From Prochlorococcus sp. AG-412-J13 (GTDB taxonomy: Bacteria; Cyanobacteriota; Cyanobacteriia; PCC-6307; Cyanobiaceae), in assembly GCA_003214815.1 (NCBI GenBank), contig QCLE01000002.1, positions 1 to 64,000 on the forward strand: a DNA stretch of 64,000 nucleotides. The letters are read 5' to 3'. The notes beneath the pieces are model-generated. The model was not told the origin of the DNA. It made no database searches and worked only from the letters and a program-made list of their open reading frames with translations. A program made the position numbers and the translations under genes. Position 1 is the stretch's first letter. Each line of letters opens with the position of its first letter. Of the stretch, positions 26,854 through 27,125 are shown one piece after another.

Positions 26854-27027
26854 TTATTTAGTGTAAATTACACCTCTGTAATTTAATTTTGCTTTTTCAT
26901 TACTTGAAGAAGCGTCATCCATTCTATTGGTGTATACGTTTCTTCTGTAGGTAAGTTCAATAAATTGCTTTTTAGCAACTTCTTTGTTTTGAACGTAGTT
27001 TTTACCTCTGTAAGTTAAAGTAGTCAT
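26854..27027 (-). CDS. DUF4278 small protein with three L-x-Y-R repeats
   Basis: A 57-residue protein counted from the ATG at 27027. It is almost entirely three copies of the pattern L-[TN]-Y-R-x3-Y: LTYRGKNY (4-11), LTYRRNVY (25-32) and LNYRGVIY (48-55). This is the DUF4278 signature. Function is unknown. It has its own promoter-like element, a structured leader that I read as a glutamine-II riboswitch, and a strong terminator, so it is an independently regulated monocistronic unit. Upstream in-frame ATGs at 27051 and 27063 overlap the leader structure and would add an atypical N-terminus. Confidence 0.8.
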   Translation of the reverse strand: MTTLTYRGKNYVQNKEVAKKQFIELTYRRNVYTNRMDDASSSNEKAKLNYRGVIYTK

Positions 27028-27047: not shown

Positions 27048-27101
27048 CCATCCCCCGTTCCATGGTATGACTCGAACTGCGCCCTCAAATGAGGGTGAAC
27101 G
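27048..27101 (-). promoter_or_regulatory. Probable glutamine-II riboswitch (Downstream-peptide motif)
   Basis: Minus-strand RNA reads CGUUC (27101-27097) pairing with GAACG (27060-27056) as P1, and CCCUC (27095-27091) with GAGGG (27086-27082) around AUUU as P2. CCAU (27065-27062), inside P1, can pair with AUGG (27051-27048) outside it, forming an H-type pseudoknot. The sequence blocks GUUCACCC, GGGCGCAGUUC and ACCAUGGAACG recall the Downstream-peptide RNA motif of Synechococcus/Prochlorococcus, which binds L-glutamine and precedes short ORFs. Here it lies just upstream of a 57-residue DUF4278 ORF. The pairings are seen; the identification is from memory of the motif. Confidence 0.72.
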
Positions 27102-27125
27102 AAAAGTAGCTATTGCTACAAAATT

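Follow-up and report, generated by a model that had tools for sequence, protein, structure and literature searches.

The window is the whole stretch of DNA analysed, 64,000 nucleotides from Prochlorococcus sp. AG-412-J13. As judged by covariance-model and protein-family matches, it is confirmed to carry a type 2 glutamine riboswitch aptamer upstream of a DUF4278 gene. The features of the locus all lie on the minus strand and are listed here in the direction of transcription.

27155-27126, minus strand: promoter-like element of the sigma-70 type, TAGACA-18-TATAAT, with 11 of 12 consensus matches (consensus match only)
27119-27106, minus strand: putative NtcA-type operator GTAGCAATAGCTAC, an exact match to the consensus GTA-N8-TAC
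27104-27047, minus strand: Glutamine-II aptamer (also called type 2 glutamine or Downstream-peptide), full-length match to RF01704
27101-27097, minus strand: 5' strand of the pseudoknot helix PK, CGUUC, partner of 27060-27056
27095-27082, minus strand: hairpin P1, CCCUC/GAGGG, 27095-27091 with 27086-27082
27079 and 27055, minus strand: long-range pair C19:G41 (G at 27055), mapped by homology only
27071-27047, minus strand: helix P2, GUCAU.CC/GG.AUGGC, 27071-27064 with 27054-27047, enclosing the 3' strand of PK
27060-27056, minus strand: 3' strand of PK, GAACG
27046-27028, minus strand: 19-nt linker from aptamer to start codon, a candidate expression platform by predicted fold only, not above shuffles
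27027-26854, minus strand: open reading frame with a Pfam match, encoding a 57-residue DUF4278 protein, start ATG at 27027
26834-26810, minus strand: terminator-like hairpin GCCCC-N7-GGGGC (26834-26818) followed by a T run, found by scan

The Rfam model for Glutamine-II, RF01704, matches 27104-27047 with 67.5 bits and an E-value of 3.7e-14 in a search of the 64 kb. The score is about twice the gathering cut-off of 33, and the match spans model positions 1-60 of 60. Two tRNAs are the only other matches in the window above the gathering score. The present aptamer, aligned to the Rfam consensus, shows a single gap in each of the P1 loop and P2. It shares with the class its sequence, its P1-PK-P2 topology, its place in the 5' leader of a short reading frame and its picocyanobacterial host, with no essential difference. 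A preliminary description had placed a glutamine-II riboswitch at 27048-27101 and named a covariance-model search as a check; that search gave the significant match above, which differs from that placing by at most 3 nt. A search of the same genome for the type 1 glutamine riboswitch (RF01739) gave zero matches. From class membership, this aptamer would be expected to bind L-glutamine and to activate expression.

The arrangement of the helices can be taken from the crystal structure of the class. In the excerpted text of PMC6698751, CGUUC/GAACG forms the pseudoknot helix PK, the next hairpin is P1, and P2 flanks the 3' strand of PK. The sequence blocks of the preliminary description, such as CGUUC/GAACG and CCCUC/GAGGG, are indeed found in the minus-strand leader, but two labels were wrong by this topology: its P1 is PK, and its P2 is P1. 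What it took for the pseudoknot, CCAU/AUGG, is the true P2 paired in the wrong register. Over 36 aptamers that register yields 110 standard pairs in 144 cells, compared with 266 in 273 for P2; among 15 distinct orthologs within the genus, the figures are 55 of 60 and 105 of 105.

Covariation, the second check that had been proposed, is seen in all three helices. Among 36 distinct aptamers of the 57-residue family, P1 shows standard pairs in 173 of 180 cells with two-sided changes in all five pairs, and P2, with its 266 of 273, has two-sided changes in five of eight pairs. PK pairs in 180 of 180 cells but is invariant in this set. Compensatory changes in PK appear across families: the 137 distinct aptamers compared comprise 110 with CGUUC/GAACG, 14 with CGUCC/GGACG and 13 in which CAACG partners CGUUG, with two-sided changes in pairs 4 and 5 and zero mismatches, a count biased toward pairing because the 3' strand was found by a pattern that permits G or C and then A or G at the variable positions. 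Sliding one strand by one or two columns as a control lowers the counts to 72-108 of 180 for PK, 82-111 of 180 for P1 and 37-54% for P2. One gap was shifted in 15 rows before the cells were counted. The C and G of the long-range C19:G41 pair are invariant in 36 of 36, yet three of its four slid controls likewise pair in 36 of 36.

The reading frame behind the aptamer encodes a protein of 6.8 kDa with a pI of 9.9, carrying three YRG/YRR units. It matches PF14105 (DUF4278) over residues 2-55 with 38.1 bits against a gathering score of 25.3 (E 2e-9), in agreement with the 57-residue DUF4278 gene described earlier. An own promoter-like element and a terminator had also been described, and both were found again as listed. 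A scan of 901 bases gave six promoter-like and four terminator-like sites, where shuffles average 3.5 and 0.4, respectively. The gene is probably transcribed alone, with a 5' leader of about 92 nt. On inspection, no clear Shine-Dalgarno sequence precedes the ATG at 27027. Past the terminator, the same strand holds a methyltransferase gene (Methyltransf_31, 26775-25984) and a class V aminotransferase gene (25945-24770).

The protein itself probably serves nitrogen assimilation as a small regulatory partner. Its AlphaFold model is weak (mean pLDDT 72.1, pTM 0.30). Matches in the PDB to the Gloeobacter proteins Glr1262 (E 0.0032) and Glr2806 (E 0.01), which papers describe as phycobilisome proteins, consist of three repeats each with i-Evalues of at least 100, and were treated as chance sums. 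Among 50,697 phage records, the DNA of 27125-26854 was unmatched at E 0.01 and the protein at E 0.1.

The arrangement of a riboswitch before a DUF4278 gene is already known in picocyanobacteria. Glutamine aptamers are reported to be associated mainly with DUF4278 genes, and type 2 to be restricted to marine picocyanobacteria (PMC6316151). The same source describes PMM1846 of strain MED4, a 7-kDa DUF4278 protein whose glutamine riboswitch boosts expression in nitrogen excess and whose promoter has an NtcA motif. Since this association, PMM1846 included, is in print, the combination seen here is not new. PMM1846 resembles the present gene in size (7 kDa compared with 6.8 kDa), in the riboswitch in its 5' UTR and in the NtcA motif of its promoter. 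From size and description, it is probably the ortholog.

Another relative is the yfr6 RNA of MED4 and SS120, a short transcript reported to carry a Downstream-peptide leader and a 33-residue frame (PMC1242208, PMC2518516, PMC2864571). Peptides of this type, namely that of locus L001 and its relatives, have two YRG units, whereas the 57-residue protein has three YRG/YRR units. L001 encodes a 33-residue YRG peptide and looks like the counterpart of yfr6 in this genome. A more distant comparison is gifB of Synechocystis, which encodes the glutamine synthetase inactivating factor IF17. It is described as having a glutamine riboswitch, repression by NtcA and a DUF4278 region in common with the present gene (PMC6316151, PMC7760959). 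According to these descriptions, the aptamer of gifB is of type 1, and IF17, with 149 residues, extends beyond its DUF4278 part; in the present protein DUF4278 covers residues 2-55 of 57, leaving no such part, a comparison in which IF17 is known from its description.

The genome contains six copies of RF01704, numbered L001 to L006, of which L002 is the locus at 27104-27047. L001, L002 and L004 precede YRG peptides, L003 a GFLGAF protein of 101 residues, and L005 and L006 MNxLxLIR peptides of 54-56 residues. Two genes of the genome reach the Pfam cut-off for DUF4278, those of L002 and L001; a Pfam search with the L004-type peptide gave no match, nor did one with the representative of the family labelled AMV.

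Outside this genome the element is widespread. RF01704 occurs in 118 of 121 genomes of the genus, in 41 of the 41 that are at least 90% complete, and in all of 25 hand-picked near-complete ones. A sample of 41 genomes from the family, among them the present one and two others of the genus, has it in 28. The 57-residue gene with its leader is present in one copy in each of the 25 picked genomes. A search of named genomes found 189 relatives of its protein, and the 80 loci kept, at 89-95% identity, belong to Prochlorococcus or to uncultured Synechococcaceae.

For comparison, 201 matches were fetched: 105 from the 25 chosen genomes, 75 from the part of the family sample outside the genus, and 21 more from the genus. 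Start codons were sought 12-33 nt past the aptamer, with ATG preferred and frames of at least 17 residues. The start lies 14-22 nt past the aptamer in 193 of 201, a number that includes two mis-picks (L156 and L200); six, all of class C, have it at 30-31 nt, and two have none. By motif, the 201 divide into 137 YRG (class A, where the motif label is Y[RFC]G), 52 MNxL, seven GFLGAF, three other and two without a peptide.

The families that share the riboswitch are varied. In L005 and L006, on contigs 20 and 37 of this genome, and in most of L127-L152, the aptamer precedes peptides of 51-56 residues that are rich in arginine and lysine and carry the MNxLxLIR motif; their representative has no Pfam match. 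Hybrid proteins with an MNxL N-terminus and YRG units follow the same riboswitch in other genera (L076, L078, L080, L181 and the second match of L164). They link both peptide families, and two representatives match DUF4278 below the cut-off. The GFLGAF protein, of 101-104 residues, follows Glutamine-II in L003, L093, L096, L099-L101 and L166; its representative has no Pfam match, and by inspection it is possibly a membrane protein.

A second regulatory element lies immediately before the aptamer. The putative NtcA operator at 27119-27106 begins 18 nt before the first aptamer base, C1, and the -10 hexamer ends shortly upstream of it (27131-27126). An ntcA gene is present in the genome, with 366.6 bits. 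The exact GTA-N8-TAC box stands in 25 of 25 distinct upstream regions of the 57-residue family (A57) within the genus. Across the wider collection, the box begins 17-23 nt upstream of the initial base of PK in 44 of 46 A57 upstreams, 58 of 61 A33, 24 of 25 AMV, five of five class C and one of two other YRG. Together this is 132 of 139 distinct YRG and class C upstreams, compared with 1.8-3.2% when the letters of these 73-nt stretches are shuffled, although the counts are not independent because the genomes are related. Repeats of identical 73-nt upstreams were merged, and five records outside classes A, B and C were left out: L120 (YMG replacing YRG), L156 (wrong frame picked by the start rule), L200, L153 and L197. 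Leaders of the MNxL type have the exact box in none of 24 distinct upstreams within the genus and in 21 of 51 overall, two of them at -17, the others at -24 or between -34 and -38. The stricter pattern GTAG-N6-CTAC occurs 24 times in the genome, compared with 13 for the reversed control pattern. Four of the 24 are the boxes of L001-L004, and the other 20 lie elsewhere.

The position of the box relative to transcription can be estimated from yfr6. In MED4, the start of this RNA is reported to map to a G, with the 33-residue frame beginning at nt 97 (PMC1242208). Numbered from the box's first G, the ATG of A33 leaders falls at nt 97-98 in 42 of 61 records. If A33 is taken to be yfr6, as its 33-residue peptide suggests, this spacing puts the transcription start at the box's initial base or directly beside it. 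At the present locus, transcription would then most likely start at 27119, the first G of the box, or at an adjacent base. The operator would thus cover about +1 to +14, which is the position of a repressor. Because of this placing, and because gifA and gifB are reported to be repressed by NtcA (PMC6316151, PMC7760959), we infer that NtcA would repress from this box.

Three further observations concern these upstream regions. If transcribed, the operator palindrome at 27119-27106 would fold at the 5' end into the hairpin GUAGC/GCUAC with UUUU behind it, conceivably with a role in RNA stability. The palindrome GTAGCAACCGCTAC, which is that of the L001 box, is found at G000:C4:106875-106888 of this genome, away from any Glutamine-II match. 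In the A57 leaders L058, L061, L063, L064, L083 and L167 from outside the genus, an element GTATC...(G/A)AAC recurs about 68 nt before C1; it may be a second NtcA-like site or a -35 region.

Taken together, the locus very probably represents a glutamine-II leader combined with an NtcA gate, acting as a translational ON switch on the 57-residue gene in a Prochlorococcus-like cell. When nitrogen is poor and 2-oxoglutarate is high, NtcA on the box at 27119-27106 would block initiation. With plentiful nitrogen, NtcA would leave and the mRNA would be made. L-glutamine would then stabilise the P1-PK-P2 pseudoknot, opening the adjacent downstream start region for translation, as published for the class. 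The placing of box and aptamer thus suggests a control with two inputs, in which low 2-oxoglutarate permits transcription and high glutamine permits translation. Nitrogen abundance is probably the condition under which the DUF4278 gene is expressed.

The direction of the switch is taken from the literature. The type 2 riboswitch is reported to activate expression with glutamine in Prochlorococcus (PMC6316151), and Huang 2019 describes it as an ON switch, likely translational, arguing from the closeness to the initiator codon (PMC6698751). In the preliminary description, binding of the ligand was instead suggested to hide translation signals. Such an OFF switch would work by burying an in-frame ATG at 27051 inside the folded aptamer, and this ATG does lie within the 3' strand of P2, in frame with the DUF4278 gene. 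For a class reported as ON (PMC6316151, PMC6698751), however, the ligand should expose the start, not hide it. The ATG at 27051 is present in the genus orthologs and in none of the listed A57 leaders outside the genus, which likewise have no counterpart of the N-terminal extension it would give. The YRG and MNxL families have their starts 14-22 nt past the aptamer, so that the ATG at 27027, about 19 nt on, is the common one, and the Pfam match already starts at residue 2 of the shorter protein. An OFF switch is thus extremely improbable here.

Another reading places the control at transcription, with the leader acting by attenuation. The leader does contain one terminator-like hairpin and U run, namely the operator palindrome GTAGCAATAGCTAC followed by TTTT. 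That hairpin, however, precedes the aptamer, at the inferred 5' end of the RNA; the scan finds no terminator-like hairpin in the 19 nt between aptamer and start, and Huang 2019 favours translation, the initiator codon being near (PMC6698751). Attenuation is therefore very unlikely, and a translational ON switch is the preferred reading.

A specific form of this ON switch is direct masking of the start. In a predicted fold, GUCAU (27071-27067) would pair with AUGAC (27027-27023) when glutamine is missing, and formation of P2 would free the start codon. In RNAfold, the mean probability of this helix is 0.38-0.82 and varies with the ends that are chosen; the minimum free energy is -28.5 kcal/mol, compared with -25.8 kcal/mol when P1 and P2 are forced and the PK strands left unpaired. 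On the other side, 38% of dinucleotide shuffles for this locus do equally well. By inspection the helix is particular to this ortholog, and in L052, from the same genus, one of the pairs is lost. In 49 representatives of 167 distinct leaders, pairing between start and aptamer scores 5.57, compared with 5.52 in dinucleotide shuffles (p = 0.24). Masking in this form is a tentative proposal, with the chances somewhat against it.

Start masking was also considered as a general platform and set aside. Pairing of the start seemed raised against plain letter shuffles (mean z 0.57-0.74), a rise that involves the linking strand in A57 and A33 and the 5' strand of PK in A57 and B; against dinucleotide shuffles it was not raised. 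Real and dinucleotide-shuffled values by family are 6.93 and 5.46 for A57, 5.46 and 5.26 for A33, 6.37 and 4.52 for AMV, 2.02 and 1.65 for C, and 4.55 and 6.26 for B.

The locus agrees with a mode of regulation already published for Prochlorococcus. What is useful about it is how little the distances between NtcA box, aptamer and start codon vary among paralogs and from genus to genus. In the literature searched, no statement of a constant spacing between box and aptamer was found; Klahn 2018 may describe it. The fixed spacing makes a two-signal gate, sensing 2-oxoglutarate and glutamine, directly testable. It also yields a list of other small proteins that would belong to this circuit.

A wider reading would extend the circuit to all of these families. 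Here, a conserved cassette, with the NtcA operator at +1, the aptamer usually 4-5 nt on and the ATG usually about 19 nt further, would drive miniproteins of the YRG/DUF4278 and GFLGAF types across the genus. In the genus, the aptamer without the box also precedes MNxLxLIR peptides, and MNxL-YRG hybrids occur in other genera. All together would replace the inactivating factors of glutamine synthetase, which picocyanobacteria are said to lack. This reading is speculative and rather unlikely.

Finally, some copies of these loci are repeated within a genome. In G050, two copies of the GFLGAF locus are identical across all 1,565 nt compared. In G158, four dispersed identical cassettes (L170-L173) each consist of the riboswitch and a 35-residue YRG peptide. 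Relative to L170, the identity of the other copies extends 118, 322 and 691 nt upstream of the aptamer start, the last being all that was compared, and 234 nt downstream of it.
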